A DNA stretch of 64,000 bases from Ehretia macrophylla. Lineage: Eukaryota; Streptophyta; Magnoliopsida; Boraginales; Ehretiaceae. The DNA is taken from positions 59,159,850 through 59,223,849 of the forward strand of contig CM075770.1 in the NCBI GenBank assembly GCA_037974665.1. Reading direction: 5' to 3'. Numbering within the stretch: the first letter of the stretch is position 1; every line of letters starts with the position of its first letter. Below the pieces are notes generated by a model. The model saw only the letters and a list, made by a program, of their open reading frames with translations, had not been told where the DNA came from and made no database searches. Positions 18,635-63,984 of the stretch are shown piece by piece. The position numbers were made by a program, and so were the translations under genes.

Positions 18635-18754
18635 GGGGGTGCAACACGAGGACTTCTTACGGGGCCAACCATCCTAGTACTACTCTCGCCCAAGCACGCT
18701 TAACTTCAGAGTTCTGATGGGATCCGGTGCATTAGTGCAGGTATGATCCCACCC
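18635..18754 (-). rRNA. 5S rRNA: 5S rRNA gene, copy 28 (Y type)
   Basis: The first copy from the left with the full Y haplotype: nt 6 G, 47 U, 95 G, 97 A, plus GGCCAACC in the C box. Confidence 0.95.
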
Positions 18755-19311
18755 GTCATGTTCAGGGCACAATTCTTTTATGTGTTAACGGTTCACAGTC
18801 CCAAGCTAGAGAGATGGCCCATTCAGAAGGCCCAATGGGCTAAACGACAACCCATCCGCTTCAACCACGCAGCATCCTTGCAAGACGTGATATCGACGCG
18901 TTGTACTAGCCCTCTAATGTCCCGCGAGTAAGGTTGTCGTCCTTTTAATAGCTCACGACGTAAGATCCGGGACAGAAAAACATAGAAAAAGAAGAATGGT
19001 GGCCGGAAATTGATGAAAATGTTCGATTTTGGGCTCCAAAAAGGGCACAACACGCAAGCTTGCTGCCTTTGTCGTAGAGCTCTCGGAGAGCTTTCCAACG
19101 GTATGCTGTGCATCGTGTAACTCTTTACGGATCAAAAGTTATGGGCACCGAAGCGACGGAGACCTGGTCACAAGCCCTACGCCCCCAGTTTGCTGGCCCA
19201 GCCTCCACGTGAAACGAAGTTGTCTTGCCCAAGGTGCCGAGCGATTCGATAATATAAATGTGGTGGATAAAGTATCTTGCCTACCATGACCGGAGCAAAA
19301 AAATTGAAAAA

Positions 19312-19431
19312 GGGGGTGCAACACGAGGACTTACCAGAGAGTCACCCATCCTAGTACTACTCTCGCCCAAGCATGATTAATTTTGTAGTTCGGATGGGAT
19401 CCGATGCATTAGTGCTGGTATGATCGCACCC
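19312..19431 (-). rRNA. 5S rRNA: 5S rRNA gene, copy 29 (Z-like)
   Basis: Z-like: nt 99 U and 92 U with A-box changes (GCATGATTAATTTTG) and GTTCGG. nt 6 is the consensus C. Confidence 0.94.
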
Positions 19432-19988
19432 ATCATGTTGAGGGCACAATTCCTTTCTGTGTTAATGGTTTACAGTCTCAACCTAGAGAGATGGCCTATT
19501 CAGAAGGCCCAATGGGCTTAACGACAACCCATCCACTTCAACAACGCTGCATCCTCGCAAGACGTGATATCGACGCGTTGTAGGGCCCTCTAACGTCCCG
19601 CGAGTAAGGTTGTCGTCGTTTTAACAGCTCACGTTGTACGATCCGGGACGGAAAAACATAGCAAAATAAGAAAAGTGGACCGAAACTGGTGAAAACGTTC
19701 AATTTTGGACTCCAAAAAGGGCACAGCGAGCAGGCTAGCTGCCCCCGTCGTAGAGCTCTCGGAGAGCTTTGCAACGGTATGCTGTGTGCCGCGTAACTCC
19801 TCATGAATCAAAAGTTATGGGCACCAGTGCGACGGAGACCTGGTCACAAGCCCTACACCCTCATTTTGCTGGCCAAACCTCCACGTGAAGAAATGTTTTC
19901 TTGCCCAAGTTGCCGTGGAATTCGATAATAGAAATGTGGTGGATAAAGTATCTTGGCAACCATAACCGGAGCAAAAAAAATTGAAAAG

Positions 19989-20108
19989 GGGGGTGCAACA
20001 CGAGGACTTCCTACGGGGTCACCCATCCTAGTACTACTCTCGCACAAGCACGCTTAACTTCAGAGTTCTGATGGGATCCGGTGCATTAGTGCCGGTATGA
20101 TCCCACCC
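19989..20108 (-). rRNA. 5S rRNA: 5S rRNA gene, copy 30 (Y type)
   Basis: Clean Y haplotype (CTTCCTACGGGG, CTTCAGAG, GATCCCACCC on the plus strand). C6G leaves a G6/G113 mismatch in helix I. Confidence 0.96.
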
Positions 20109-20664
20109 GTCATGTTGAGGGTACAATTCCTTTATGTGTTAACGGTTCACAGTCCCAGCCTAGAGAGATGGCCCATTCAGAAGGCCCAATGGGCTTAACG
20201 ACAACCCATCCGCTTCAACAACGCAGCATCCTTGCAAGACGTGATATCGACGCATTGTAGGGCCCTCTAATGTCCTGCGAGTAAGGTTGTCTTCCTTTTA
20301 ACAACTCACGACTTAAGATCCGGGATGAAAAAATAGAACAAAAGAAGAAAAGTGGCCTGAAACTGATGAAAACGTTCGATTTTGGGCTCCAAAAAGGGCA
20401 CAGCGAGCTAGCTAGCTGCCCCCATCGTAGATCTCTTAGAGAGCTTTCCAATGGTATGCTATGTGCCGCATAACCCCTTACATATCAAAAGTTATGGGCA
20501 CTGGAGCTACGGAGACCTGGTCACAAGCCCGACACCCTTGGTTTGCGGGCTCAGCCTTTACGCGAAGCGAAGTTGTCTTGCCCAAGATGTCGTGGGCCTC
20601 GATAATAGAAACGTGACGGATAAAGTATATTGGCAGCTATAACTGGAACAAAAAAAATTGAAAA

Positions 20665-20784
20665 GGGTGTGCAACACGAGGACTTCCTAAGGGGTCACCC
20701 ATCCTAGTACTACAATCGCCCAAGCACGCCTAACTTCAGAGTTCTGATGGGATCCGGTGCATTGGTACTTGTATGATCCCTCCC
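20665..20784 (-). rRNA. 5S rRNA: 5S rRNA gene, copy 31
   Basis: Y-like with nt 97 A, 47 U, 6 G, plus nt 4 U to A. Shares ACAATCG with copy 38 and CACGCCTAAC with copy 43, its relatives in later blocks. Confidence 0.94.
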
Positions 20785-21265
20785 GTCATGTTGAGGGCAC
20801 AATTCCTTTATGTGTTAATGGTTCACAGTCCCAGCCTAGAGAGATAGCCTATTCAGAAGCCCCAATGAGCTTAACGACAACCAATCCGCTTCAACAACAC
20901 AGTATCCTTGAAAGACGTGATATTGACGCGTTGTAGGGCCTTCTAATGTCCCACGAGTAAGGTTGTCGTCCTTTTAACAGCTCACGACGTGTGATCGGGG
21001 ATGAAAAAACATAGCAAAAGAAGAAAAGTGGCACAAAATTGAGGAAAACGTTCAATTTTGGTCTCCAAAAAGGGCACAACAACCAAGCTAGCTGCCCCCG
21101 TCGTAGAGCTCTCAGAGAGATTTGCAACGGTATGCTGTGCACCACGTAACTCCTTACGGATCAAAAGTTATGGTCACCGGAGCAACGGAGACCTGGTCAC
21201 AATAATAGAAATTTGGCTGATAAAGTATCTTGGCAACCATAACTGGAGCCAAAAAAGTTGAAAAG

Positions 21266-21385
21266 AAGGGTGTAACACGAGGACATCCGAAGGGGTCACC
21301 CATCCTAGTACTACTCTCGCCAAAGCACGCTTAACTTCGGAGCTCTGATGGGATCCGGTGCATTAGTGCTGGTATGATTGCACCC
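21266..21385 (-). rRNA. 5S rRNA: 5S rRNA gene, copy 32
   Basis: Full length; CATCCGAAGGGG, CTCGCCAAAGC, nt 113 G to A (TGTAAC on the plus strand). Relatives are copies 39 and 44. The spacer on its left carries a deletion of about 77 bp. Confidence 0.94.
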
Positions 21386-21942
21386 GTCATGTTGAGGGCA
21401 CAATTCCTTTATGTGTTAATGGTTCACAGTCCCAGCCTAGAGAGATGGACCATTCAGAAGGTCCAATGGGCTTAACGACAACCCATCCGCTTAAACAACG
21501 CAGCATCCTCGTAAGACGTGATATCGTCGAGTTGTAAGGCCCACTAATATCCCGCGAGTAAGGTTGTCATCCTTTTAACAGTTCAAGAAGTACGATGCGG
21601 GACGGAAAAACAAAGCAAAAGAACAAAAGTGGCTCAAAACTGATGAAAACGTTCGATTTTGGGCTCCAAAAAGGGCACTGCGGGCAAGCTTGCTGCCCCT
21701 GTCGTAGACCTCTCGGAGAGCTTTACCACGGTATGCTGTGTGCCGCGTAACTCCTTACGGATCAAAAGTTATGGGCAACGGAGTGACGGAGACCTGGTCA
21801 CAAGCCCTACACCCTCAGTTTGCTGGCCTAACCTCAACGTGAAGCGATGTTGTCTTGCCCAAGGTGCCGTGGGATTCGATAATAGAAATGTGGTGGATAA
21901 AGTATCTTGGAAACTATAACCGGTGCAAAAAAAATTGAAAAT

Positions 21943-22062
21943 GGGGGTGCAACACGAGGACTTCCTAGGGGGTCACCCATCCTAGTACTACTCTCGCCCA
22001 AGCACGCTTAACTTCAGAGTTCTGATGGGATCCAGTGCATTAGTGCTGCTATGATCCCACCC
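21943..22062 (-). rRNA. 5S rRNA: 5S rRNA gene, copy 33
   Basis: Part Y: nt 97 A, 47 U and 6 G but nt 95 still C. The A box is consensus. Confidence 0.95.
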
Positions 22063-22619
22063 ATCATGTTGAGGGCACAATTCCTTTATGTGTTAACGGT
22101 TCACAGTCCCAGCCTTGAGAGATGGCCCATTCAGAAGGCCCAATGAGCTTAACGACAACCCATCCGCTTCAACAACGCAGCATCCTCGCAAGACGCGATA
22201 TCGATGCATTGTGGGGCCCTCTAATGTGCCGCGAGTAAGGTTGTCATCCTTTTAACAACTCACGACGTACCATCGGGGACAAAAAAACATAGCAAAAGAA
22301 GAAAAGAGGCACGAAACTGATGAAAACGTTCGATTTTGGGCTCCAAAAATGGCATAGCAAGTAAGCTAGCTGCCCCCGTCGTAGAGCTCTCAAAGAGCTT
22401 TGCAACGGTATGTTGTGCGCCGCGTAACTCCTTACGGATCAAAAGTTATGGGCACCGGAGCGACGGAGACCTGGTCACAAGCCCTACGCCCTCAGTTTGC
22501 TGGCTCGGCCTCCACGTGAAGCGAAGTTGTCTTGCCCAAGGTACCGTGGGATTCGATAATAGAAATTTGGCGGATAAAGTATCTTGGCAACCCTAACCGG
22601 TGCAAAAAAAATTGAAAAG

Positions 22620-22739
22620 GGGGGTGTAACACGAGGACTTCCGAAGGGGTCACCCATCCTAGTACTACTCTCGCCCAAGCACGCTTAACTTCGGAGTTTT
22701 GATGGGATCCGGTGCATTAGTGCTGCTATGATCCCACCC
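22620..22739 (-). rRNA. 5S rRNA: 5S rRNA gene, copy 34
   Basis: CTTCCGAAGGGG on the 3' side; nt 6 G together with nt 113 A, so the helix I pair 6-113 is changed on both strands without restoring pairing. nt 47 is consensus. Confidence 0.95.
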
Positions 22740-23295
22740 GTCATGTTGAGGGCACAATTCCTTTATGTGTTAACGGTTCACAGTCCCAGCCTAGAGAGAT
22801 GGCCCATTTAGAAGGTCCAATGGGCTTAACGACAACCCATCCGCTTCAACAACGCAGCATCCTCGCAAGACGTGAAATCGACACGTTGTAGGGCCATCTA
22901 ATGCCCCGCGAGTAAGGTTGTCATCCTTTTAACATCTCAAGACGTACGATCCGGGATGGAAAAACATAGCAAAAGTATAAAAGTGGCCAAAAACTGATGA
23001 AAACGTTCGATTTTGGGCTCCAAAAAGGGCAAAATGAGCAAGCTTGCTGTCCCGTCGTAGAACTCTCGGAGAGCTTTACAACGGTATGCTGTGTGCTGCG
23101 TAACTCCTTACAGATCAAAAGTTATGGGCACCGGAGCGACGGAGACCTGGTCACAAGCCCTACACCTTCAGTTTGCTAGCCCAACCTCCACGTGAAGCGA
23201 CGTTTTCTTGCCCAAGGTGTCATGGCATTCAATAATAGAAATGTGGTGGATAAAGTATCTAGGCAACAATAACCGGAGCAAAAAAATTTGAAAAG

Positions 23296-23415
23296 GGCGG
23301 TGCAACACGAGGACTTCCTACGGGGTCACCCATCCTAGTACTACTCTCGCCCAAGCACGCTTAACATCAGAGTTCTGATGGGATCCGGTGCATTAGTGCT
23401 GCTATGATCCGACCC
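23296..23415 (-). rRNA. 5S rRNA: 5S rRNA gene, copy 35 (Y type)
   Basis: Y haplotype with an additional change at nt 5 (GATCCGACCC on the plus strand) and ACATCAGAG near the A box. Confidence 0.95.
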
Positions 23416-23972
23416 ATCATGTTGAGGGCACAATTCCTTTATGTGTTAACGGTTCACAGTCCCAGCCTAGAGAGATGGCCAATTCAGAAGGCCCAATGGG
23501 CTTAACGACAACCCATCCGCTTCAACAACGCAGCATCCTCACAAGATGTGATATCGACGCGTTGTAGGGCCCTCTAATGTCCAGCTTGTAAGGTTGTCGT
23601 CCTTTTAACAGCTCACGGCGTACAATTCGGGACAGAAAAACATAGCAAAAGAAGAAAAGTGGCCCGAAACTGATGAAAATGTTCGATTTTAGGCTACAAA
23701 AATGGCACAGCGAGCGAGCTAGCTGCCCCCGTCATAGAGCTCTCGGAGAGCTTTCCAACGGTATGCTGTGCGCCGCGTAACTCCTTACGGATCAAAAGTT
23801 ATTGGCACCGAAGTGACGGAGACCTGGTCACAAGCCCTACGCCCTCGGTTTGCTGGCCCAGCCTCCTCGTGAAGCGAAGTTGTCTTGCCCAAGGTGCCGT
23901 GAGATTCGATAATAGAAATGTGGTGGATAAAGTATCTTGGCAACAATAACTGGAGCAAAAAAATTTAAAAAG

Positions 23973-24092
23973 GGGGGTGCCACACGAGGGCTTACCGGGG
24001 AGTCACCTATCCTAGTACTATTCTTGCCCAAGCATGCTTAATTTCAGATTTCGGATAAGATCTGGTGCATTAGTGCTGGTATGATCCCACCC
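23973..24092 (-). rRNA. 5S rRNA: 5S rRNA gene, copy 36 (Z/Y mosaic)
   Basis: Z at nt 92, 99, 51 and 58 (CATGCTTAATTTC) but with the Y base G at nt 6. Counterpart of copy 41 in the next five-unit block. Confidence 0.94.
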
Positions 24093-24648
24093 GTCATGTT
24101 GAGGGCACAATTCCTTTATGTGTTAACGGTTTACAGTTCTAGCCTTGAGATATGGCCTATTTAGAAGGCCCAATGGGCTTAACGACAACCCATGCACTTC
24201 AACAACGTAAAATCCTCGCAAGTATTGATATTGACGCGTTGTAGGGCCCCCTAATGTCCTACGAGTGAAGTTGTTGTCCTTTTAACAGCTCACGACGTAC
24301 AATCCGGGACGAAAAAACATAGCAAAAGAAGAAAAGTGGCACGAAACTGATGAAAACGTTCAATTTTGGGCTCCAAAAGGGCACAACATGCAAGCTAGCT
24401 GCCCCCGTCATAGAGCTCTTAGAGTGCTTTGCAACAGTATTCTGTGCGCCGCGTAACTTCTTACAGATCAAAAGTTATGGGTACCGGAGCGACGTAGACT
24501 TGGTCACAAGCCCTAAACTCTCTGTTTGCTGGCCCAGCCTCTACGTGAAGCGAAGTTGTCTTGCCCAATGTACCGTGGCATTCAATAATAGAAATGTGGC
24601 GGATAGAGTATCTTGGCAACCCTAACTAGAGCCAAAAAAATTGAAAGG

Positions 24649-24768
24649 AGGGGTGTAACACGAGGACTTCCCAGGTGGTCACCCATCCTAGTACTACTCT
24701 CGCCCAAGCATGCTTAACTTCGGAGTTCTGATAGGATCTGGTGCATTAGTGCTGGTATGATCACACTC
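24649..24768 (-). rRNA. 5S rRNA: 5S rRNA gene, copy 37 (W type)
   Basis: W group: nt 93 C to A (CCCAGGTGG), nt 113 A (TGTAAC), nt 2 A (CACTC). Also nt 6 U and nt 58 A. Two or three helix I pairs are lost. Counterpart of copy 42. Confidence 0.94.
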
Positions 24769-25325
24769 GTCATGATGAGGGCACAATTCCTTTATGTGTT
24801 AATAGTTCACAGTCCCAGCCTGGAGAGATGGCCCATTCAGAAGGTCCAATGGGCTTAACAACAATCCATCTGCTTCAACAACGCTGCATCATCGTAAGAC
24901 GTGATATCGACGCATTGTAGAGCCCTCTAATGTCCCGTGAGTAAGGTTGTCGTCCTTTTAACAGCTCACGACGTACGATCCGGGATGGAAAAACATAGGA
25001 AAAGAATAAAAGTGGCCCGAAACTGATGAAAATGTTCAATTTTGGGCTCCAAAAAGGGCACAGCGAGCTAGCTAGCTGCCCCCGTCGTAGAGCTCTCGGA
25101 GAGCTTTACAACGGTATGCTATGTGCCGCGTAACTTCTTACGGATCAAAAGTTATGGGCACCGGAGCGAAGAAGACCTGGTCACAAGCCCTACACCCTCA
25201 GTTTGCTGGCCCAACCTCCACGTGAAGCGAAGTTGTCTAGCCCAAGCTGCCGTGGGATACGATAATAGAAATGTGGTGGATAAAGTATCTTGGCAACCAC
25301 AACCGGAGCAAAAAAAATTGAAAAG

Positions 25326-25445
25326 GGGCGTGCAACACGAGGACTTCCTAGGGGGTCACCCATCCTAGTACTACAATCACCCAAGCACGCTTAACTTCAG
25401 AGTTCTGATGGGATCCTGTGCATTGGTACTGGTATGATCCCACCC
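25326..25445 (-). rRNA. 5S rRNA: 5S rRNA gene, copy 38
   Basis: Part Y (nt 97 A, 47 U, 6 G). Carries the ACAATC marker of copy 31. Confidence 0.95.
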
Positions 25446-26002
25446 GTCATGTTGAGGGCACAATTCCTTTATGTGTTAACGGTTCACAGTCCCAGCCTAG
25501 AGAGATGGCCCATTCAGAAGGCCCAATGAGCTTAACGACAACCAATCCGCTTCAACAACGCAGTATCCTCGCAAGACGAGATATTGACGCGTTGTAGGGC
25601 CCTCTAATGTCCCACGAGTAAGGTTGTCGTCCTTTTAATAGCTCACAACGTGCGATCGGGGATGAAAAAAGATAGCAAAAGAAGAAAAGTGGCACGAAAC
25701 TGATGAAAATGTTCAATTTTGGGCTCCAAAAAGGGCACAACAATCAAGCTAGCTACCCCCGTCGTAGAGCTCTCAAAGGGCTTTCCAACGGTATGCTGTG
25801 CGTCGCGTAACTCCTTACGGATCAAAAGTTATGGGCACCGGAGCAACGGAGACCTGGTCACAAGCCATAAGCCCTCGGTTTGCTGGCTCAGCCTCCACGT
25901 GAAGCGAATTTGTCTTGCCCAAGGTGCCGTGGGATTCGATAATAGAAATTTGGCGGATAAAGTATCTTTGTAACCATAACTAGAGCCAAAAAAGTTGAAA
26001 AG

Positions 26003-26121
26003 GAGTGTGTAACACGAGGACTCTCCAGGGGGGCACCCATCCTAGTGCTACTCTCGCCAAAACACGCTTAACTTCGGAGTTCTGATGGGATCGGTGCATT
26101 AGTGCTGGTATAAGCGCGCCC
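26003..26121 (-). rRNA. 5S rRNA: 5S rRNA gene, copy 39 (-1 nt)
   Basis: 119 nt, one base missing in GATCGGTGC; nt 113 A, GGGGGGCACCC in the C box, CGCCAAAAC in the A box. A decayed relative of copies 32 and 44. Confidence 0.92.
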
Positions 26122-26679
26122 GTCATGTTGAGGGTACAATTCCTTTATGTGTTAACGGTTCACAGTCCCAGCCTAGAGAGATGGCCCATTCAGAAGGCCC
26201 AATGGGCTTAACGACAACCCATCCGCTTCAACAACACAGCATCCTCGCAAGACGTGATATTGACGCGTTGTAAGGCCCCCTAATGTCTTGTGAGTAAGGT
26301 TGTCATCCTTTTAACTATTCAAGAAGTACGAAGCGGGACGAAAAAACATAGCAAAAGAAGAAAAGTGGCTCGAAACTGATGAAAACGTTCACTTTTGGGC
26401 TCCAAAAATGGCACCGTGAGCAAGCATGCTGTCCCCGTCGTAGAGCTCTCAGAGAGCTTTACAACGGTATGCTGTGTGCCGCGTAACTCCTTACGGATCA
26501 AAAGTTATGGGCACCGGAGCGACGAAGAGCTGGTCACAAGCCTTACACCTTCAGTTTGCTAGCCCAACCTCCACGTGAAGCGAACTTTTCTTGCCCAAGG
26601 TGCCGTGGAATTCGATAATAGAAATGTGGTGGATAAAGTATCTCGGCAACCATAACCGGAGCAAAAAAAAATTGAAAAG

Positions 26680-26799
26680 GGGGGTGCAACACGAGGACTT
26701 CCTACGGGGTTACCCACCATAGTACTACTCCCGCCCAAGCACGCTTAACTTCGGAGTTCTGATGGGATCCGGTGCATTAGTGCTGGTATGATCGTACCC
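26680..26799 (-). rRNA. 5S rRNA: 5S rRNA gene, copy 40 (Y 3' half)
   Basis: Y bases at nt 95 and 97 with GGTTACCCACCA across the C box, but nt 47 and nt 6 are consensus: a mosaic of Y and consensus. Confidence 0.94.
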
Positions 26800-27356
26800 A
26801 TCATATTGAGGGCACAATTCCTTTATGTGTTAATGGTTCACAGTCCCAGCCTAGAGAGATGGCCAATTCAGAAGGCCCAATGGGCTTAACGACAACCCAT
26901 ACGCTTCAACAACGCAGCATCCTGGCAAGAAGTGATATCGACGCGTTGTAGGGCCTTCTTATGTCCCGCGAGTAAGGTTGTCGTCCTTTTAACAGCTCAC
27001 GACATACGATCCGGGATGGAAAAACAGAGCTAATCTAGAAAAGTGGCCCAAAACTGATGAAAATGTTCGATTTTGGGCTCCAAAAAAGGCAAAATGAGCA
27101 AGCAAGCTGCCCTCGTCGTAGAGCCCTCGATGAGCTTTCCAACGGTATGCAGTGCGCCGCGTAACTCCTTACGGATCAAAAGTTATGGGCACCGTAGCGA
27201 CGGAGACTTGTTCACAAGCCCTACGCCCTAGGTTTGCGGGCCCAGCCTCCACGTGAAGCGAAGTTGTCTTGCCCAAGGTGCCGTGAGATTCGATAATAGA
27301 AATGTGGTGGATAAAGTATCTTGGCAACCATAACTGGAGCAAAGAAATTTGAAAAG

Positions 27357-27476
27357 GGGGGTGCAACACGAGGACTTACCAGGGAGTCACCCATCCTAGT
27401 ACTGCTCTGACCCAAGCATGCTTAATTTCGGAGTTCTGATGGGATCCGGTGCATTAGTGCTGGTATGATCGCACCC
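27357..27476 (-). rRNA. 5S rRNA: 5S rRNA gene, copy 41 (Z type)
   Basis: Clean Z haplotype: nt 51 A and 58 A in the A box, 92 U, 99 U; nt 6 consensus. Confidence 0.96.
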
Positions 27477-28032
27477 GTCATGTTGAGGGCACAATTCCTT
27501 TATGTGTTAACGGTTTACAGTCCTAGCCTTGAGAGATGGCCCATTCAGAAGGCCCAATGGGCTTAACGACAACCCAAGCACTTCAACAACGCAAAATCCT
27601 CGCAAGTAGTGATATTGACGCGTTGTAGGGCCCCCTAATGTCCTACGAGTGAAGTTGTTGTCCTTTTAACAGCTCACGACGTACAATCCGGGACGAAAAA
27701 ACATAGCAAAAGAAGAAAAGTGGCACGAAACTGATGAAAACGTTCAATTTTGGGCTCCAAAAAGGGCACAGCGAGCAAGCTAGCTGCCCCCGTCGTAGAG
27801 CTCTCAGAGTGCTTTGCAACAGTATTCTGTGCGCCGCGTAACTTCTTACAGATCAAAAGTTATGGGTACCGGAGCGACGTAGACTTGGTCACAAGCCCTA
27901 AACTCTCTGTTTGCTGGCCCAGCCTCTACGTGAAGCGAAGTTGTCTTGCCCAATGTACCGTGGGATTCAATAATAGAAATGTGGCGGATAAAGTATCTTG
28001 GCAACCCTAACTGTTGCCAAAAAATTGAAAAG

Positions 28033-28152
28033 TGGGGTGTAACACGAGGACTTCCCAAGTGGTCACCTATCCTAGTACTACTCTCGCCCACGCACGCTTA
28101 ACTTCGGAGTTCAGATGGGATCTGGTGCATTAGTGCTGGTATGATCGCACTC
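28033..28152 (-). rRNA. 5S rRNA: 5S rRNA gene, copy 42 (W type)
   Basis: W group: nt 2 A, 93 A, 113 A, plus nt 95 U. Its spacer to the left is close to that of copy 37, about 3.38 kb away. Confidence 0.95.
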
Positions 28153-28720
28153 GTCATGTTGAGGGCACAATTTCTTTATGTGTTAACAGTTCACAGTCCC
28201 AGCCAGGAGAGATGGCCCATTCAGAAGGTCCATTGGGCTTAACAACAACCCATCCGCTTCAACAACGTTGCATCATCGCAAGACGTGATATCGACGCATT
28301 GTAGGGCCCTCTAATGTCCCGCGAGTAAGGTTGTCATCCTTTTAACAGCTCAAGACGTACGATCCGAGACGAAAAAATATAGCAAAAGAAGAAAAGTGGC
28401 CTGAACCTGATGAAAACGTTCGATTTTGGGCTCCAAAAAGGGCACAGTGAGCTAGCTAGCTGCCCCCGTCGTAGAGCTCTCGGAGAGCGTTCCAACGGTA
28501 TGCTGTGCGCCCCGTAACTCCTGACGGATCAAAAGTTATAGGCACCGGATCGACGGAGAGCTGGTCACAAGCCCTACACCCTCTATTTGCTTGCCTAACC
28601 TCCACATGAAGTGAAGTTTTCTTGCCCAAGGTGCCGAGGAATTTGATAATAAAAATGTGGTGGAGTTTTCTTGCCCAAGTATCTTGGCAACCTTAACCGG
28701 AGCAAAAAAAATTGAAAAGG

Positions 28721-28840
28721 GGGGGTGCAACACGAGGACTTCCTACGGGGTCACCCATCCTAGTACTACTCTCGCCCAAGCACGCCTAACTTCAGAGTTC
28801 TGATGGGATCCGGTGCATTGGTGATTGTATGATCCCTCCC
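28721..28840 (-). rRNA. 5S rRNA: 5S rRNA gene, copy 43 (Y type)
   Basis: Y haplotype plus nt 4 U to A and CGCCTAAC, as in copy 31. The spacer 3' of it holds a small templated insertion at 28665-28679. Confidence 0.95.
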
Positions 28841-29397
28841 GTCATATTGAGGGCACAATTCATTTATGTGTTAATGGTTCACAGTCCCAGCCTAGAGAGA
28901 TGGCCTATTCAGAAGCCCCAATGAGCTTAACGACAACCAATCTGCTTCAACAACATAGTATCCTCGAAAGTCGTGATATTGACGCGTTGTAGGGCCCTAT
29001 AATGTCCCGCGAGTAAGGTTGTCATCCTTTTAAAAGCTCACGACGTGCGATCGGGGATGAAAAAACATAGCAAAAGAAGAAAAGTGGCACAAGACTGAGG
29101 AAAACGTTCAATTTTGGTCTCCGAAAAGGGCACAACAATCAAGCTAGCTGTCCCCGTCGTAGAGCTCTCAAAGAGCTTTGCAACGGTATGTTGTGAGCCG
29201 CGTAACTCCTTACGGATCAAAAGTTATGGGCACCGGAGTAACGGAGACCTGGTCACAAGCCCTACGCCCTTGGTTTGCTGGCTCAGCCTCCACGTGAAGC
29301 GAAGTTGTCTTGCCCAAGGTGCCGTGGGATTCGATAATAGAAATTTGGTGGATAAAGTATCTTTGCAACCATAACTGGAGCCAAAAAAGTTGAAAAT

Positions 29398-29517
29398 GAG
29401 GGTGTAACACGAGGACTTCCCAGGGGGTCGCCCATCCTAGTACTACTCTCGCCAAAGCATGCTTAACTTCGGAGTTCTGATGGGATCCGGTGCATTAGTG
29501 CTGGTATAAGTGCACCC
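29398..29517 (-). rRNA. 5S rRNA: 5S rRNA gene, copy 44
   Basis: Consensus on the G-run side (CCCAGGGGG) with GTCGCCC in the C box; nt 113 A; GCCAAAGCATGC in the A box. Counterpart of copies 32 and 39. Confidence 0.95.
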
Positions 29518-45159: not shown

Positions 45160-45164
45160 CACAG
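45160..45164. repeat. Target site duplication, right copy (CACAG)
   Basis: Matches the left copy at 41322-41326; the 5S spacer resumes directly after it. Confidence 0.85.
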
Positions 45165-52823: not shown

Positions 52824-52943
52824 GGGGGTACAACACGAGGACTTACAAGGGAGTGACCCATCCTAGTACTACTCTCGCCCAAGCATGCTTAATTTCGGAG
52901 TTCTGATGGGATTTGGTGCATTAATGTTGGTATGATCGCTCCC
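52824..52943 (-). rRNA. 5S rRNA: 5S rRNA gene, copy 73 (Z type, block A unit 1)
   Basis: Z haplotype; TTACAAGGGAGTGACC. Counterpart of copy 77 exactly 2709 bp away. Confidence 0.95.
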
Positions 52944-53501
52944 GTCATGTTGAGGGCACAATTCCTTTATGTGTTAACGGTTCACAGTACCAGCCTAGAG
53001 AGATGGCCCATTCAGAAGGCCCAATGGGCTTAACGACAACCCATCCACTTCAACAACGCAGCATCCTCGCAAGACGTGATATCGATGCGTTGTAAGGCCC
53101 TCTAATGTCCCGCGAGTAAAGTTGGCGTTCTTTTAACTGCTCACGACGTACGATCCGGGATGGATAAACATAGGAAAAGAATAAAAGTGGCCTGAAAGTG
53201 ATGAAAACGTTCGATTTTAGGCTCCAAAAAGGGCACAGCCAGCTAGCTAGCTGCCCCCATCATAGAGCTATCAGAGAGCTTTACAACGGTATGTTGTGTG
53301 CCGCATAACTCCTTACGGATCAAAAGTTATGTGCACCGGAGCGACGGAGACCTGGTCACAAGACCTACACCCTCAGTTTGCTGGCCCAACCACCACGTGA
53401 AGCGAAGTTTTCTTGCCCAAGATGCCGTGGGATTCGATAATAGAAATGTGGTGGACAAAGTATCTTGGCAAACATAACCGGAGCAAAAAATATTGAAAAG
53501 G

Positions 53502-53621
53502 GGGGGTGCAACACGAGGACTTTCTACGGGGTCACCCATCCAAGTACTACTCTCGCCCAAGCACGCTTAACTTAAGAGTTCTGATGGGATCTGGTGCATT
53601 AGTGCTGGTATGATCGCACTC
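53502..53621 (-). rRNA. 5S rRNA: 5S rRNA gene, copy 74 (Y/W mosaic, block A unit 2)
   Basis: Y at nt 95 and 97, W at nt 2 (CACTC), consensus at nt 6; CTTAAGAG at nt 47. Counterpart of copy 78. Confidence 0.95.
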
Positions 53622-54178
53622 GTCATGTTGAGGGCACAATTCCTTTATGTGTTAACAGTTCACAGTCCCAGCCTGGAGAGATGGCCCATTCAGAAGGTCC
53701 AATGGGCTTAACAACAACCCATCCGCTTCAACAACGCTACATCATCGCAAGACGTGATATCGACGCATTGTAGGGCCCTCTAATGTCCCGCGAGTAAGGT
53801 TGTCGTCCTTTTAACAGCACAAGACGTACGATCCGGGACGATAAAACATAGCTAAAGAAGAAAAATGGACCGAAACTGATGAAAATGTTCAATTTTGGGC
53901 TACAAAAAGGGCACAGCAAGCTGGCTAGCTACCCCCGTCGTAGAGCTCTCGGAGAGCTTTACAACGGTATGCTGTGTGTCGCGTAACTCCTTACGGATCA
54001 AAAGTTATGGGCACCGGAGCAACGAAGACCAGGTCACAAGCCCTACACGCTCAGTTTGCTGGCCCAACCTCCACGTGAAGCGAAGTTTTCTTGCCCAAGG
54101 TGCCGTGGGATTCGATAATAGAAATTTGGTGGATAAAGTATCTTGGCAACCATAGCCGAAGCAAAAAAAATTGAAAAT

Positions 54179-54298
54179 GGGGGTGCAACACGAGGACTTC
54201 CTACGGTGTCACCCATCCTAGTACTACTCTCGCCCAAGCACGCTTAACTTCAGAGTTCTAATGGGATCCGGTGCATTAGTGCTGGTATGATCCCACCC
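54179..54298 (-). rRNA. 5S rRNA: 5S rRNA gene, copy 75 (Y type, block A unit 3)
   Basis: Y haplotype with CTACGGTGTCACC. Counterpart of copy 79 by position, though that gene has diverged. Confidence 0.95.
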
Positions 54299-54855
54299 GT
54301 CAAGTTGAGGGCGCAATTCCTTTATGTGTTAATGGTTCACAGTCCCAACCTAGAGAGATGGCACATTCTGAAGGCCCAATGGGCTTAACGACAACCCATC
54401 CGCTTCAACAACGCCGCATCCTTGCAAGACATTATATCGATGCATTGTAAGGCCCTCTAATGTCATGCGAGCAAGGTTGTCGTCCTTTTAACAGCTCACG
54501 ACGTACGATCCGGGACAGAAAAACATAGGAAAAGATGAAAAGTGGCCCAAAACTGGTAAAAACGTTCAATTTTGGGCTCCAAAAAGGGCACAGCGAGCAA
54601 GCTAGCTGCCCCCATCGTAGAGCTCTCGGAGACCTTTACAACGGTATGCTGTGTGCCGCGTAACTCCTTGCGGATCAAAAGTTATGGGCACCGGAGCGAC
54701 GGAGACCTGGCCACACGCCCTCCACCCTCAGTTTCCTAGCTCAACCTCCACGTGGAGTGAAGTTTTCTAGCCCAAGGTGTCGGGGGATTCGATAATAGAA
54801 ATGTGGTGGATAAAGTATCTTGGCAACCATAACCGGAGCAAAAAAAATTGAAAAG

Positions 54856-54975
54856 GGGGGTGCAACACAAGGACTTCTTACGGGGTCACCTATCCTAGTA
54901 CTACTCTCGCCCAAGCACGCTTAACATCAGAGTTCTAATGGGATCTGGAGCATTAGTGCTGGTATGATCCCACCC
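54856..54975 (-). rRNA. 5S rRNA: 5S rRNA gene, copy 76 (Y type, block A unit 4)
   Basis: Y haplotype; CACAAGGACTTCTTACGG, CACCTATCC, TAACATCAG. Nearly identical to copy 80. Confidence 0.96.
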
Positions 54976-55532
54976 GTCATGTTGAGGGCACAATTCCTTT
55001 ATGTGTTAACGGTTCACAGTCCCAGCTTAGAGAGATGGCCCATTCGGAAGGCCCAATGGGCTTAACTACAACCCATCCACTTCAACAACGCAGCATCCTC
55101 GCAAGACATGATATCGACGTGTGGTAGGGCCCTCTAATGTCCCGCGAGTAAGGTTGTCATCCTTTTAACAGCTCACGACATACGATCTGGGACGAAAAAA
55201 CATAGTAAAAGAGGAAAAGTGGATCGAAACTGATGAAAATATTCGATTTTGGGCCCCAAAAATGGCACAGCAAGCAAGCTTGCTGCCACTGTCGTAGAGC
55301 TCTTCGAGTGTTTTCCAACGGTATGCTGTACGCCGCGTAACTCCTTACGGATCAAAAGTTATGGGCACCGGAGCGACGGAGACCTGGTCACAAGCCCTAC
55401 GCCCCCGGTTTGCCGGCCCAGCCTCCACGTGAAATGAAGTTGTCTTGCCCAAGGTGCCGATGGATTCGATAATAGAAATGTGGTGGATAAAGTATCTTGG
55501 CAACCATAACCGGAGCAAAAAAATTTAAAAAG

Positions 55533-55652
55533 GGGGGTGCAACACGAGGACGTACCAGGGAGTGACCCATCCTAGTACTACTCTCGCCCAAGCATGCTTA
55601 ACTTCGGAGTTCTGATAGGATCCGGTGCATTAGTGTTGGTATGATCGCACCC
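55533..55652 (-). rRNA. 5S rRNA: 5S rRNA gene, copy 77 (Z type, block B unit 1)
   Basis: Z at nt 92, 99 and 58 but consensus G at nt 51; AGTGACC shared with copy 73. Confidence 0.95.
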
Positions 55653-56210
55653 GTCATGGTGAGGGCCCAATTCCTTTATGTGTTAACGGTTCACAGTCCC
55701 AGCCTAGAGAGATGGCCCATTCTGAAGGCCCAATGGGCTTAACGACAACCCATCCACTTCAACAACGCAGCATCCTCGCAAGACGTGATATCGACGCATT
55801 GTAGAGCCCTCTAATGTCCCGTGAGTAAGGTTGTCGTCCTTTTAACAGCTCACGACGTACGATCCGGGATGGAAAAACATAGGAAAAGAATAAAAGTGGC
55901 CCGAAACTGATGAAAATGTTCAATTTTGGGCTCCAAAAAGGGCACAGCCAGCTACCTAGCTGCCCCCATCATAGAGCTATCAGAGAGCTTTACAACGGTA
56001 TGTTGTGTGCCGCATAACTCCTTACGGATCAAAAGTTATGTGCACCGGAGCGACGGAGACCTGGTCACAAGACCTACACCCTCAGTTTGCTGGCCCAACC
56101 ACCACGTGAAGCGAAGTTTTCTTGCCCAAGATGCCGTGGGATTCGATAATAGAAATGTGGTGGACAAAGTATCTTGGCAAACATAACCGGAGCAAAAAAT
56201 ATTGAAAAGG

Positions 56211-56330
56211 GGGGGTGCACCACGAGGACTTTCTACAGGGTCACCCATCCTAGTACTACTCTCGCCCAAGCTCGTTTAACTTCAGAGTTCTGATGGGATC
56301 TGGTGCATTAGTGCTGGTATGATCGCACTC
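56211..56330 (-). rRNA. 5S rRNA: 5S rRNA gene, copy 78 (Y/W mosaic, block B unit 2)
   Basis: CTTTCTACAGGG and CACTC as in copy 74; nt 112 U to G (GTGCACCACG). Confidence 0.95.
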
Positions 56331-56887
56331 GTCATGTTGAGGGCACAATTCCTTTATGTGTTAACAGTTCACAGTCCCAGCCTGGAAAGATGGCCCATTC
56401 AGAAGGTCCAATGGGCTTAACGACAACCCATCCGCTTCAACAACGCTGCCTCATCGCAAGACGTGATATCGACGCATTGTAGGGCACACTAATGTCCCGC
56501 GAGTAAGGTTGTCATCCTTTTAACAGCTCACGACGTACGATCCGGGACGAAAAAACATAGCAAAAGAGTAAAAGTGACCCGAAACTTATGAAAACGTTCA
56601 ATCTTGGTCTCCAAAAAATGCACAGCGTGCTAGCTAGCTGCCCCCGTCGTAGATCTCTCGGAGAGCTTTACAACGGCATGTTGTGTGCCGCGTAACTCCT
56701 TACGGATCAAAAGTTATGGGCACCGGAGCGACGGAGAGCTGGTCACAAGCCCTACACCCTCAGTTTGCTAGCCCAACCTCCACGTGAAGCGAATTTTTCT
56801 TGCCCAAGGTGCCGTGGGATTCGATAATAGAAATGTGGTGGAAAAAGTATCTTGGCAACCATAACCGGAGCAAAAAAAATTGAGAAG

Positions 56888-57007
56888 GGGAGTGCAACAA
56901 GAGGACTTCCTACGGGGTGACCCATCCTAGTTCTACTCTCGCCCAAGCACGCTTAACTTCGGAGTTCTTATGGGATCCGGTGCATTAGTGCTGGTATGAT
57001 CCTACCC
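56888..57007 (-). rRNA. 5S rRNA: 5S rRNA gene, copy 79 (Y type, block B unit 3)
   Basis: Y at nt 95, 97 and 6 (plus nt 5 A), consensus at nt 47; GGTGACC and AGTTCTAC. Confidence 0.95.
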
Positions 57008-57564
57008 GTCGTATTGAGGGAACAATTCCTTTTTGTGTTAATGGTTCACAGTCCCAGCCTAGATAGATGGCTCATTCAGAAGGCCCAATGGGCTTAACAA
57101 CAACCCATCCGCTTCAACAACACAGCATCCTTGCAAGACTTGATATCGACGCGTTGTAAGGCCCTCTAATGTCATGTGAGCAAGGTTGTCGTCCTTTTAA
57201 CAGCTCACGACGTACGATCCGGGACGGAAAAACATAGGAAAAGATGAAAAGTGGCCCAAAACTGGTAAAAACGTTCAATTTTGGGCTCCAAAAAGGGCAC
57301 AGCGAGCAAGCTAGCTGCCCCCATCGTAGAGCTCTCGGAGACCTTTACAACGGTATGCTGTGTTCCGCGTAACTCCTTGCAGATCAAAAGTTATGGGCAC
57401 TGGAGCGACGGAGACCTGGCCACACGCCCTCCACCCTCAGTTTCCTAGCTCAACCTCCACGTGGAGCGAAGTTTTCTAGCCCAAGGTGTCGGGGGATTCG
57501 ATAATAGAAATGTGGTGGATAAAGTATCTTGGCAACCATAACCGGAGCAAAAAAAATTGAAAAG

Positions 57565-57684
57565 GGGGGTGCAACACAAGGACTTCTTACGGGGTCACCT
57601 ATCCTAGTACTACTCTCGCCCAAGCACGCTTAACATCAGAGTTCTAATGGGATCTGGTGCATTAGTGCTGGTATGATCCCACCC
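57565..57684 (-). rRNA. 5S rRNA: 5S rRNA gene, copy 80 (Y type, block B unit 4)
   Basis: Matches copy 76 at every private marker, 2709 bp away; the -1 base differs (ATCATG for GTCATG on the plus strand). Confidence 0.96.
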
Positions 57685-58241
57685 ATCATGTTGAGGGCAC
57701 AATTCCTTTATGTGTTAACGGTTCACAGTCCCAGCTTAGAGAGATGGCCCATTCGGAAGGCCCAATGGGCTTAACTACAACCCATCCACTTCAACAACGC
57801 AGCATCCTCGCAAGACGTGATATCGACGCGTTGTAGGGCCCTCTGATGTCCCGCGAGTAAGGTTTTCGTCCTTTTAATAGCTCACGACGTACGATACGGG
57901 ACGGAAAAACATAGCAAAACCAGAAAAGTGGCCAGAAACTGATGAAAACGTTAAATTTTTGGCTCCAAAATAGGCACAGCGAGCAAGCCAGTTGCCCCGG
58001 TCTTAGAGCTCTTGACGAGCTTTCCAACGGTATGTTGTGTGCCGCGTAACTCCTTACGGATCAAAAGTTATGGGCACTGGAGCGACGGAGACCTGGTCAC
58101 AAGCCCTACGCCCTCGGTTTGGCAGCCAAGCCTCCATGTGAAGCGAAGTTGTCTTGCCCAAGGTGTCGTGGGATTCGATAATAGAAATGTGGTGGATAAA
58201 GTATCTTTGCAACCATAACCAGAGCAAAAAAATTTGAAAAG

Positions 58242-58361
58242 GAGGGTGCAGTACGAGGACATACCTGGGAGTCACCCATCCTAGTACTACTCTCGCCCAA
58301 GCTTGCTTAATTTTGGAGTTCTGATGGGATCCGGTGCATTAGTGCTGGTATGATCACACTC
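58242..58361 (-). rRNA. 5S rRNA: 5S rRNA gene, copy 81 (Z/W mosaic)
   Basis: Z on the 3' side and A box (AGCTTGCTTAATTTTG), W base at nt 2 and U at nt 6. Confidence 0.95.
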
Positions 58362-58918
58362 GTCATGTTGAGGGCACAATTCCTTTATGTGTTAATGGTT
58401 TACAGTCCCAGGCTTTAGAGATGGCCCATTCAAAAGGCCCAATGGGCTTAATGACAACCCATCCGCTTCAACAACACAGCATCCTCGCAAGTAGTGATAT
58501 GAACACGTTGTAGGGCCCTCTAATGTCCTACGAGTGAGGTTGTCGTCCTTTTAACAGCTCACGACGTACGATCCGGGACGAAAAAACATAGCAAAAGAAG
58601 AAAAGCGGCACGAAACTGATGAAAATGTTTGATTTTGGGCTCCAAAAAGGGCACAGCGAGCAAGCTAGCTGCCCCCGTCATAGCGCTCTCAGAGAGCTTT
58701 GCAACGTTTTGCTGTGCGCCGCGTAACTTCTTACGGATCAAAAGTTATGGTCACCGGAGCGACGTAGACCTGGTCACAAGCCCTACACTCTCTGTTTGCT
58801 GGCCCAACCTTCACATGCAACGAAGTTGTCTTGCCCAAGGTACCGTGGGATTCAATAATAGAAATGTGGCGGATAAAGTATCTTGGCAACCCTAACCGGA
58901 GCCAAAAAAATTGAAAAG

Positions 58919-59038
58919 GGGGGTGTAACACGAGGACTTCCCAGGTGGTCACCCATCCTAGTACTACTCTCGCCCAAGCACGCTTAACTTTGGAGTTCAG
59001 ATGGGATCTGGTGCATTAGTGCTGGTATGATCGCACTC
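58919..59038 (-). rRNA. 5S rRNA: 5S rRNA gene, copy 82 (W type)
   Basis: W group (nt 2 A, 93 A, 113 A). Its unit resembles those of copies 37 and 42 on the other side of the first solo LTR. Confidence 0.95.
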
Positions 59039-59596
59039 GTCATGTTGAGGGCACAATTCCTTTATGTGTTAACAGTTCACAGTCCCAGCCTGGAGAGATG
59101 GCCCATTCAGAAGGTCCAATGGGCTTAACGACAACCCATCCGCTTCAACAATGCTGCATCATCGCAAGACGTGATATCGACGCATTGTAGGGCCCTCTAA
59201 TGTCCCGCGAGTAAGGTTGTCGTCCTTTTAACTGCTCAAGACGTACGATCCGGGACGAAAAAAGATAGCAAAAGAAGAAAAGTGGCCCGAACCTGATGAA
59301 AATGTTTGATTTTGGGCTCGAAAAAGGGCACAGCGTGCTAGCTAGCTGCCCCCGTCGTAGAGCTCTCAGAGAGCTTTACAACGGTATGCTATGTGCAGCG
59401 TAACTCCTTACAGATCAAAAGTTATGGGCACCGGAGCGACGGAGACCTGGTCACAAGCCCTACACCCTCAGTTTGCTAGCCCAACCTCCACGTGAACCGA
59501 AGTTTTCTGGCCCAAGGTGTCGTGGGATTCGATAATAGAAATGTGGTGGATAAAGTATCTTGGCAACCATAACCGGAGCAAAAAAAAATTGAAAAG

Positions 59597-59716
59597 GGGG
59601 GTGCAACACGAGGACTTCCTACGGGGTCACCCATCCTAGTACTACTCTCGCCCAAGCACGCTTATCTTCAGAGTTCTTATGGGATCCGGTGCATTAGTGC
59701 TGGTATGATCCCACCC
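59597..59716 (-). rRNA. 5S rRNA: 5S rRNA gene, copy 83 (Y type)
   Basis: Y haplotype; CTTATCTTCAG and TTCTTATG are private. Last gene before the second solo LTR, which lies about 400 bp upstream of its start. Confidence 0.95.
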
Positions 59717-60120: not shown

Positions 60121-63100
60121 TGTCACGCCCCAACCCGGCCTATAAAGGTTAGACTATGGTGTGAACTAACATTCAAGTCACGTCTCGTACTTAACCGTTC
60201 ATTAAGATTTGACACTTAACGTTTTGGCCTAAACTCCAAAATTTCCCGAAAAATCTGCAGCATAACGGCTGTAATTGGGCTCTTTGGTTTGGCCTAATTC
60301 TCTAAACGGCTCAAATTTCTCTAATCTCAATTTCATTTCCAACTAGGATTACCATTTAACATCAATTGAAATGCCTATTGGTTATCTCGATGTCTCATTT
60401 GATTTATATCCTAGCATGATACTATGTCTCGTTTGTTTGTTTATCCTCGTTACAAAAGTACCTGTTGATCTTAGCTTAATAGCAAGTACCTGTTCAAGAT
60501 TGGATAGGTTCATTTTCTTAGTCCTTAACTAATACGTCGTAACCTATGATAGATACTAGCGGTAATAATAGCAAAATGATCACAGGAGTGTCTAGTGTCT
60601 GCTTAGCAATATCAGTACAAACCAAAGTTAGACCCCAAATTACAACGGGGGTCTTTTTACATTACAAATAACAAGCAACGTAAAAGAAATAGTCTTCAAG
60701 TAGCATAGAGTTCACAAGTAGCCACTATCACGCAAAGCACACAAGACAGGCAATCACTCCAAGGATTCATCGTTAGGCACACCATCCTCGGGTATCTGTT
60801 TTGGATCTTCTTAACCTGAGATGATAAAAGAGGGTGAGTCCTTATGAACTCAATGAGGGGGGAACGAGAAATAGATTTTGAAATTCATTTTCCGGTTCAA
60901 CTTATGAAATCCTTTTGCAAGCATGAATATAACAATAATATAAGTACAGGAACAGAAATACCATTCTTTCCTCCCCGAGGTTCTCTAGGAACCAAGCGAG
61001 AGTACTTATACACATAGTAAAAGGATACAGTGAGCTTTTGCTCTCAGATCAGTTCCAGAATCAGTTGTTGCAGCCGACTTCAAATCATTCCCCAAACACG
61101 CCAGGTGGGTGTACTCCGGATGTACCCCGAAATCCTATGACCTAGCTCTCCGAGGAAGTCTAGCCCCCAAGCGAGATAGGGAATGGGACCATGGTAGTCA
61201 TGGGTGCACTGGCAAGCCCGATGCCGCCCGGTGTGCGTGATCGCTACCATGCCAACAGGAAAGGTTGCAACCTTGTATGCAGTGCACATTTATGACATTA
61301 ACATATCACGTTAGGAGGTCAACAAAGTAGGTTGCCTCCGGACAGTCATAAGATTGCACATTGACAAGTGAACAGGCAGGGCACGATAAGACAAGTAATT
61401 TCACTTGAAAGGCATATAGAGTTATATGAACATTAAACGGGCAGCCATGTAACACATGTAAATCAAGCCATATAACTCATTTCGAAGTCCATGTAATTAG
61501 GTGATAGGATTATTCAACATGCAACAACATCTACGTGGGTTCGGATGCAGGAAAAGCCTATTTGTCGACATGCAATGATCAAAATTACATTTAAGGTTAT
61601 AAGGGCATCTACGGGCAGCCTACTAAGCATATAATTCCACACAATATCCAAATGATCATCACTTAGCAAGACTACCTAGTCATTAGGGTTTCCATTTCGT
61701 GCATATCCGTGCAATTTAAGCCCCAAACCAATTCAAAATCAATCTCAAGCCATGCATCATTTAATTCAACATCCTCAAACATTCAAAACATCCCACACAA
61801 CATCCCAAAGCTACAATCCCAAGCATTTATTTCAACAAGAGAAGTTACAACAATTTTTCGAAGCATAACACTAAGTGAAACCCTACTGCAATAGGCTGTT
61901 TTCTCACAATCATTAAGATAAGAAAACAATATCCAAATCCAGTGAATAAGATTTCAAATTAAATCTTAAGAAGTGAACTAAAATCAGAAACAAACCTTGC
62001 ATCATTTGGAGTTCAGGATCATTAGTTATAGCCAAAACAGTGGAATAGCACGAAACTGTCCAGATTTGCACACTTTTCAGTAATTGACGTTTTTGAGGTC
62101 CTTAGGGTCAGTTTTAGCCTTCGTCCATTTCTGACAAAAATGTCCAGAACTGAAAAATATATCAGAACACCAAATTACATGCATTTTGGACATCATTTAC
62201 TAAGTCAAATCTGGTTCGTTCTACAAGGTCAGTGCATCTGCTAAAACCTGCTTCATTTTTTACAGATTTCCAGATTTGGACACATTTTAAAGATTTGCTA
62301 TTTTGAGGACATTAGATTCAAAATTATCTTCATCCTATTTCTACGAAAACTGTTTAAAACTGGCAAAACTAGGCACCTACCAATTTTCATGTATTTTAAA
62401 CATCATTTGCCTAGCTAAACTTACCTCGAAACAAACTGGTCAGAGAGCTGTCAACAATCCAACTTCACATATCATCACTTTCAAGCCAAGATCTTGCCAT
62501 GCATGGTTGCAAAAGCTTATGAACGAACATATAACTCAAGTACAGAAGCAAATACATACTTTTATGAGCATGCATGTGGATTTTTGAAGGATTTTCAAAA
62601 GGTTTTAGCCTTCACCTTAGCAATCAACCAAGAAGATGCACAAAACTTGTTGAAGCAAACTTTTCTTCTTCTCCTTTGCCTAGCCGAGATTCCAACTAGA
62701 TTTTCTCTATTTTTCCTAACTTAGTGACCAAGCTCTTAGTACATGCATGGGGTTAGAACAAGAAGAAAAGAAATGGAAGCTTAAAAACTCACCTAGGGCC
62801 GAAATGAAGACTTCAAAGGACATGCATGTGTGATTTTCGTATCCTAGCTTGTTTGCTTGAGTTTCTTTGATTGTTGCTTGTCTTGATGCACCATGAGTTG
62901 ATGAAAATGAGCAAGAGATGGTGAGAGCTCAGCCAAGGCCGAGAGATGGTGAGGAGAATGAGAGGGAGAGAGAGAAGATTGAGGAAGAAATGAGAGAATA
63001 TGACAAAGAATGACAAAGAGTGATGTTTTGCATTGTTTCAAGCATATGGTCGGCCTTGGGCAGCCCATTTTCAGTCTTTTTGTGTCTTCAAGGAGTGATT

Positions 63101-63332
63101 TTAAAATGCTAGCATGGGCAATGGTTGTTTGGTCGAACAAGGAGAGGAAATTGAGGTGGTTTTGAGCAATTTTTTATGCAGTGATAAGTGTTTTTGTGTC
63201 ATGACTTGTCTAGAATCATTTTGAATTAAACAAGCATGCAAAGAAACCACATAGTGGTCGGCCAAAGCTTCTCAATAATCTGAATTTTTTTCATGTTTTG
63301 GATGTTATTTAATTGTGTGTTGGAAGTGCAAA

Positions 63333-63360
63333 AAGAATAAAGAATAAAGAATAAAGAATG
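63333..63360. repeat. AATAAAG microsatellite inside solo LTR copy 2
   Basis: About four 7-bp repeats of AATAAAG. Copy 1 has a shorter version on the other strand near 41956-41976 (ATTCTTTATTCTTTATTCT). Confidence 0.8.
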
Positions 63361-63477
63361 TCTAGCTTTTTGTGTTATTTTGTCTTCTAGTGAGTTGAAT
63401 TAGGATTATAATATTGATAGTGGAGTTTGTAGGATTATTTAATAGCCTAGTGCTCCGTGTAAGATGCTTTCTTGATT

Positions 63478-63700
63478 AGCGTGAGGGCACGCTTTCCTAG
63501 GTCTAGGGCACGCATATGAGGTAGGACACGAACTACGAGACGAACGCACGTTTTTCAAGTAATTGTACGCAACCCTAAATGAATGCATGTAATTCAATGC
63601 ACGGCACATAAAATGAAAACAATTCTTAAACCTAGGTCAAGTTACGCAAATCTAGATTAGGGCACATGAAACGAGGTATCGCACGTAAATTGAGGTTGGG
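63478..63700. repeat. Degenerate minisatellite inside solo LTR copy 2
   Basis: Counterpart of 41340-41835 on the opposite strand, with roughly half as many repeats (GGGCACGC, GGACACGAAC, CGAACGCACG and similar). Confidence 0.6.
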
Positions 63701-63707
63701 CCTCACA

Positions 63708-63712
63708 ACGGA
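63708..63712. repeat. Target site duplication, right copy (ACGGA)
   Basis: Matches 60116-60120; the spacer of copy 84 continues from here. Confidence 0.85.
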
Positions 63713-63864
63713 GACCTGGTCACAAGCCCTATGCCCTCGGTTTACGGGCCCAGCCTCTACGTGAAGCGACATTGTCTTGCCCAAGGTGCCGTGGAATTCG
63801 ATAATAGAAATATGGAGGACTAAGTATCTGGGCAACCCTAACCGGAGCAAAAAAAATTTAAAAG

Positions 63865-63984
63865 GGGGGTACAACACGAGGACTTACCAGGGAGTCACCT
63901 ATTATAGTACTACTCTCGCCCAAGCACGCTTAATTTTATAGTTTTGATGGGATCCAGTGCATTAGTGCTGGTATGATCGTACCC
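63865..63984 (-). rRNA. 5S rRNA: 5S rRNA gene, copy 84 (Z-like)
   Basis: Z at nt 92 and 99 with CACCTATTATAG in the C box and GCTTAATTTTATAG in the A box; both internal boxes are well off consensus. The gene is complete; only 16 bp of its upstream region are in the window. Confidence 0.94.

Follow-up and report, generated by a model that had tools for sequence, protein, structure and literature searches.

The window analyzed here, a 64,000-nt stretch of Ehretia macrophylla DNA (C7:59,159,850-59,223,849), holds a tandem array of 5S ribosomal RNA (rRNA) genes in which most copies beyond about 18 kb carry one of two linked sets of base changes, Y (6G, 47U, 95G, and 97A) or Z (51A, 58A, 92U, and 99U). 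Y and Z are very probably subfamilies, that is, lineages of whole repeat units, of a decaying 5S pseudogene satellite, spread by unequal exchange within an array that is most likely silent.

A total of 84 5S rRNA genes were called in the window by cmscan, all on the minus strand, in an array derived from 5S ribosomal DNA (rDNA) that fills positions 1-64000 with tandem units of mostly ~677 bp. All 84 spanned model positions 1-120 of RF00001, scoring 65-105 bits against a cut-off of 38; the 47 5S hits scored genome-wide, none of which lay in the window, reached 118.7 bits, compared with 105 for the best window copy. The column consensus of the 84 genes showed zero differences from the canonical 119-nt plant 5S gene, and none of the 84 copies was an exact canonical gene, each differing at 4 to 17 positions. 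The assembly comprises 1.58 Gb in 20 contigs (C1, C2, etc.), all chromosome-sized (39-126 Mb), from which individual loci (L-numbers) were sampled. The same array extends beyond the window on both sides as blocks with breaks, 5S being absent from sampled loci L010 and L014. Linkage and divergence figures rest on 81 of the 84 units, the first (which has no lower neighbor) and the two holding insertions having been dropped from the unit alignment.

The first 27 copies (428-18078, minus strand) lacked both linked sets, and none of them had two or more bases of either; as the earlier note had claimed, the sets appear from ~18 kb on, in the remaining 57 copies (18636-63984, minus strand). Y was represented by 26 copies with at least three of its four bases, 16 of which had all four (18636-18754, 19990-20108, 23297-23415, 28722-28840, 32792-32910, 35499-35617, 36176-36294, 38202-38320, 47423-47541, which also has 58A, 48778-48896, 50132-50250, 51485-51603, 54180-54298, 54857-54975, 57566-57684, and 59598-59716), with three bases in the others (20666-20784, 21944-22062, 25327-25445, 30085-30203, 31439-31557, 36851-36969, 40234-40352, 53503-53621, 56212-56330, and 56889-57007). 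At least three Z bases without the linked Y set were present in 16 of the 57, or in 17 when a mosaic with four Z and two Y bases (23974-24092) is included. Fifteen of these 17 were full, namely the mosaic together with 19313-19431, 27358-27476, 32116-32234, 33468-33586, 34822-34940, 38879-38997, 39557-39675, 45428-45546, 46745-46863 (which also has 95G), 48101-48219, 49456-49574, 50809-50927, 52825-52943, and 58243-58361, and two had three bases (55534-55652 and 63866-63984, the latter also with 47U). The remaining copies comprised that mosaic and a second with two bases of each set (46105-46223), three with two Y bases, three with two Z bases, and seven with neither; all copies listed lie on the minus strand. 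The estimates of about 23 Y and 20 Z copies in the earlier note thus become 26 and 17.

The bases within each set were linked far above permutation. In the aligned units past 18 kb, of which there were 55, the full Y set occurred 16 times and the full Z set 14 times, against permutation means of 3.0 and 0.5 and maxima in 5000 permutations of 8 and 4, and only two copies held at least two bases of both sets (permutation mean 14.0); these permutations ignore the kinship of neighboring units through duplication, which inflates the significance, so that the result shows linkage and not selection. Chance co-occurrence of the eight diagnostic bases was ruled out by the same comparison. On the Rfam structure, the Y bases disrupt one pair (6-113) and leave another (30-47) as G-U, and the Z bases disrupt three (26-51, 20-58, and 78-99) and leave 85-92 as G-U. 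For the promoter we assumed an A box at nt 50-64 and a C box at nt 80-97. The placement of the Y bases at the helix IV tip in the earlier note needs correcting, as nt 95 and 97 are unpaired and fall within the C box; the proposed alteration of the A box by Z was found in all 16 Z copies. A third group of seven copies shared 2A (24650, 28034, 34145, 53503, 56212, 58243, and 58920), five of the seven with 30A and four with 113A, and some of them overlapped with Y or Z bases.

The class-associated block was not confined to the gene: it begins in the upstream spacer, includes the gene, and ends near unit position 390. Spacer columns 232 and 252, for example, distinguish the two classes nearly as well as columns of the gene do, T being present at both in 24 of the 26 Y units and in none of the 14 Z units. 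In the 39 classed units with an aligned upper neighbor, 12 columns of spacer 120-400 and three of the upstream spacer (501-650) had an r2 to Y/Z class of >0.3, the best values (0.80 and 0.79, respectively) each being reached by 0 of 2000 permutations, and no column of spacer 401-500 exceeded 0.3. Spacer 120-390 by itself assigned 37 of 40 Y and Z units correctly (permutation maximum 31), compared with just 23 of 40 for spacer 401-500; the inherited block is therefore roughly 550 of the 677 bp, with exchange breaking up the rest. When positions 1-400 of the 40 units were used to build a tree, its best split collected every one of the 14 Z units without any Y unit (support 0.97), and the best split of a spacer-only tree held all 14 Z and one of 26 Y (support 0.85). 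The linked sets described in the earlier note are real. Selection on the gene only was rejected as the main cause because the spacer by itself carries the class.

Block duplications were found at distances of 12, 5, 4, and 1 units. Within 21267-31557 (minus strand), 21267-23415 and 29399-31557 lie 12 units apart and are 93-94% alike; 24650 and 28034, with their neighbors, are duplicated five units apart and up to 96% alike; and 52825-59716 (minus strand) forms a four-unit-period block, or higher-order repeat, in which the pairs 54857/57566 and 53503/56212 are 96% alike. With unit-wide diagnostic variants and block duplications both present, Y and Z have the features of satellite subfamilies and higher-order repeats. 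A simple Y-Z dimer repeat was rejected, being only weakly indicated in a test of six lags with three counts each (unlike-class neighbors 25 vs. 19.4 expected, p 0.04); in the same test, Z-Z pairs four units apart numbered 9 vs. 5.7 expected (p 0.04).

Gene and spacer have decayed to similar degrees. Divergence from the consensus was 0.070 in the gene and 0.074 in the spacer (ratio 0.95), C-to-T and G-to-A together made up 51% of gene and 52% of spacer changes, and singletons occurred at 84 of 9608 gene and 356 of 44958 spacer sites (ratio 1.10, p = 0.41). Conserved RNA structure was rejected, since stems were no less diverged than loops once diagnostic sites were removed (0.060 vs. 0.044). There was no excess of pair-keeping stem changes (77 of 241 single changes, where the spacer spectrum predicts ~96). 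The pair-restoring combination of C6U and G113A was seen in two copies, 24650 and 34145, but G113A also occurs alone, and no inference was drawn from these. Elsewhere, the gene/spacer ratio was 0.93 in the C7 flanks (77 units), 0.80 on C2/C12 (11), 0.73 on C4 (85), 0.64 on C1 (44), 0.53 on C8 (4, one locus), and 0.27 on C10 (4, one locus), where low gene divergence is favored on C1 by fetching through an exact-gene search (three of the twelve loci overlap, and overlapping loci were counted) and on C2, C8, C10, and C12 by fetching as best-scoring 5S hits.

Promoter damage was pervasive and extended to all classes. All three boxes, i.e., the A box, intermediate element (IE), and C box, were intact (exact match required) in only 2 of 84 window copies, compared with 1 of 88 in the C7 flanks, 14 of 95 on C4 (excluding five L002 genes of the same array), and 27 of 60 on C1. 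None of the 26 Y or 16 Z copies kept the C box; the A box survived in 17 of the Y copies but in none of the Z copies. Silence, which the earlier note had suggested for Y and Z, is accordingly plausible for the array as a whole and not for these sets in particular, as 82 of 84 copies, of any class, have at least one changed box. Its view of Y and Z as families was sound insofar as they share ancestry and are not independent random hits, but gene classes maintained for a role found no support.

The following sequence of events would account for these observations. A few mutations would have arisen in single units, as nested intermediate haplotypes adjoining the window suggest, and the mutated units, with the gene and most of the spacer, would then have multiplied and been shuffled along the array. 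Duplicated blocks and mosaics are observed; the mechanisms would be unequal crossing-over, gene conversion, and duplication of local blocks. After this spread, copies would have kept decaying. About half of the observed changes are C-to-T or G-to-A, as would fit heterochromatin that is presumably methylated. Judging from the promoter damage, the array probably yields little or no transcript, and the 5S RNA of the cell would most likely come from arrays elsewhere that are rich in exact canonical genes.

Several points weigh against this account, in addition to the kinship of units noted above. When diagnostic columns were removed from the gene only and context was matched, the gene/spacer ratio fell to 0.71 (95% interval 0.61-0.82), and it was 0.91 after the most variable 6.7% of columns were trimmed from gene and spacer alike; there may thus be weak constraint on the gene, perhaps left from a functional past. 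Most copies also retain the 3′ T run, the C at -1, and often an ATAAAG box, so that some weak transcription of the array is possible. Finally, parts of the Y and Z sets are not purely local: exact 51-mers with 6G and 47T occur 17 times genome-wide, five on C7 and 12 elsewhere, and among the first 100 listed of 141 exact 25-mers with 51A and 58A, 65 are off C7.

The intermediate haplotypes come from L012 and L013, which adjoin the window. Of their 23 copies, ten combine 6G, 47T, and 97A, none of the ten with 95G and nine with 1C and 117T; six copies have at least two of 51A, 58A, and 92T, one of the six with 99T. In an upstream sample of 41 copies, the Y core was found in none and two Z bases in one. 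Y was rejected as a genome-wide family: its exact 3′ half (95G and 97A) occurs 197 times, against ~150 expected by independent recurrence (from C4 frequencies and the 41,562 canonical matches), the four matches that were fetched (the first listed, all on C1) lacked 6G and 47U, and 6G and 47U occurred together in 0 of 212 sampled copies off C7; a scattered Y relative may exist outside C7. Copies with 95G and 97A at C5:24.2155-24.2187 Mb and C4:60.447-60.449 Mb are spaced ~1571-1580 bp apart, unlike the 677-bp period.

Y and Z could alternatively derive from different parental arrays that were joined by hybridization or polyploidy and then mixed. Variants at different 5S loci of one plant have often been traced to hybridization (PMC12222929), and the exact halves of both sets on other chromosomes would fit such an origin, which we nevertheless consider unlikely. 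It is very unlikely that selection keeps Y and Z as specialized classes of 5S rRNA, e.g., for tissue-specific expression. Minor 5S variants do exist in other plants, and a terminator-like T run follows the gene in all 26 Y and all 16 Z copies, most of which (22 Y and 15 Z) also have the C at -1; however, the C box is changed in every Y copy and both the A and C boxes in every Z copy, every copy has further changes, stem changes show no bias toward pair-keeping, and the linkage reaches across the spacer. Because most of the ~550 bp (of 677) that this linkage covers is spacer, and the gene is about as diverged as the spacer, gene classes maintained for a role appear to be without support at the sequence level.

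Exact matches between chromosomes were seen in two pairs of loci, L047/L020 and L045/L049, in which C6 and C4 units match C7 units over 133 and 150 bp at the gene, sharing 8 and 10 gene changes, although their flanks are only ~85% alike; these patches, in cases that had been chosen by their gene patterns, may reflect inter-chromosome conversion or read polishing. Gene-centered conversion as a general rule was rejected in an all-pairs scan of 336 units (81 from the window and 255 of 271 others, L002, L030, L031, and L048 being dropped as overlaps), in which no 120-bp window yielded more than one pair and the gene did not stand out, although the scan is insensitive, counting rare variants only and missing the L047/L020 pair. 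That the shared haplotypes are partly an artefact of assembly or polishing, with short reads of other copies written into conserved gene segments, is the least probable explanation. The two exact matches off C7 with their dissimilar flanks would fit it, but the Y and Z blocks are roughly 550 bp long with spacer markers and the scan, for all its insensitivity, revealed no excess of patches at the gene.

Two insertions interrupt the array within the window. The first, of 3833 bp (41327-45159), lies in a spacer and is solo-long terminal repeat (LTR)-like, with TG...CA ends and CACAG as its 5-bp target duplication; a terminal direct repeat was not found in it. The second, of 3587 bp (60121-63707), is likewise solo-LTR-like with a 5-bp target duplication (ACGGA). 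Both belong to one family, inserted in opposite directions, and neither has an open frame >98 amino acids. The array does not have the structure of a Cassandra retrotransposon, which carries 5S in its LTR, as the 84 genes of the window sit in tandem units; no genome-wide search for LTR structure was made.

Exact canonical 5S genes number 2611 genome-wide, and among the first 100 listed of these, an array rich in exact genes was observed at C1:0.86-1.5 Mb (L029-L040), which may supply the 5S RNA of the plant. An exact canonical 28-mer (nt 84-111) occurs 41,562 times and, across the five sets sampled, is retained by between 7 and 53% of copies, so that the 5S copy number is probably of the order of 100,000. 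Of 60 sampled genome pieces, 11 (L059, L060, L062, L063, L073, L083, L092, L093, L094, L096, and L109) match the 5S unit, amounting to 17.8% of 10,000 bases. The first 20 pieces were taken one per contig from the first 60 Mb, with the C20 piece hand-placed at the contig start; among the other 40, which were length-weighted and random, seven match (16.6% of bases; piece interval 7-33%). 5S-derived DNA thus seems to be a main satellite of the genome.

Some of this DNA has lost the gene. In pieces from C11 and C13 (L060 and L062), unit position 502 is joined straight to 165 with the gene missing, and a 31-mer across this junction has 43,651 exact occurrences. The 100 junctions listed were all on C1, mostly at 32.02-32.36 Mb, with neighbors often 340-341 bp apart, and a 390-bp piece of this C1 array (L110) held one complete ~340-bp monomer and no significant 5S gene match. 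Arrays of this gene-less monomer are possibly centromeric. Tentatively, the 5S unit may by now be the main satellite of the genome, at about one-sixth of the DNA, and may have spawned these spacer-only arrays, in which case Y and Z would represent one step of turnover from genes to structural DNA.

The abundance of 5S repeats has published precedent. In pikes (Esox), 5S units number in the tens of thousands and form many blocks with higher-order structure, about 5% of the genome by blot, and the present case resembles theirs in that 5S is amplified and unit variants are mixed or separate along arrays (PMC5437419); there, however, genes are homogeneous and spacers ~five-fold more variable, whereas in this array gene and spacer decay alike, the genome is of plant type, and units are longer. 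5S rDNA is likewise a dominant repeat in the plant Prosopanche panguanensis, at over 15% of the genome, but 5S genes of Hydnoraceae differ by >15% from those of other angiosperms, in contrast to the canonical consensus found here, and the part of that account of P. panguanensis consulted here mentions no gene-less derivative (PMC12222929). Rosa also harbors two 5S unit families, 5S_A and 5S_B, in one genome; these are ~30 million years old and tend to differ in chromosome position, unlike Y and Z, which are intermingled in one decaying array (PMC7984461). The frog satellite PcP190 similarly includes a part like the 5S gene, although its units are ~190 bp with a 120-bp 5S-like part, in contrast to the whole 677-bp units and the derivative without the gene found here (PMC11675491). 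No description of the gene-less ~340-bp derivative was found in the literature searched, mainly abstracts.

The Y and Z families are ordinary satellite evolution with an unusually clear record, including nested haplotypes, limits of recombination inside the unit, and mosaics. The larger point lies beyond them, in the genome-wide abundance of the 5S unit and its gene-less derivative. Because this one genome holds 5S units at stages from the exact gene to the gene-less satellite, it could serve to study the timing and mechanism by which ribosomal repeats escape homogenization and become structural DNA.

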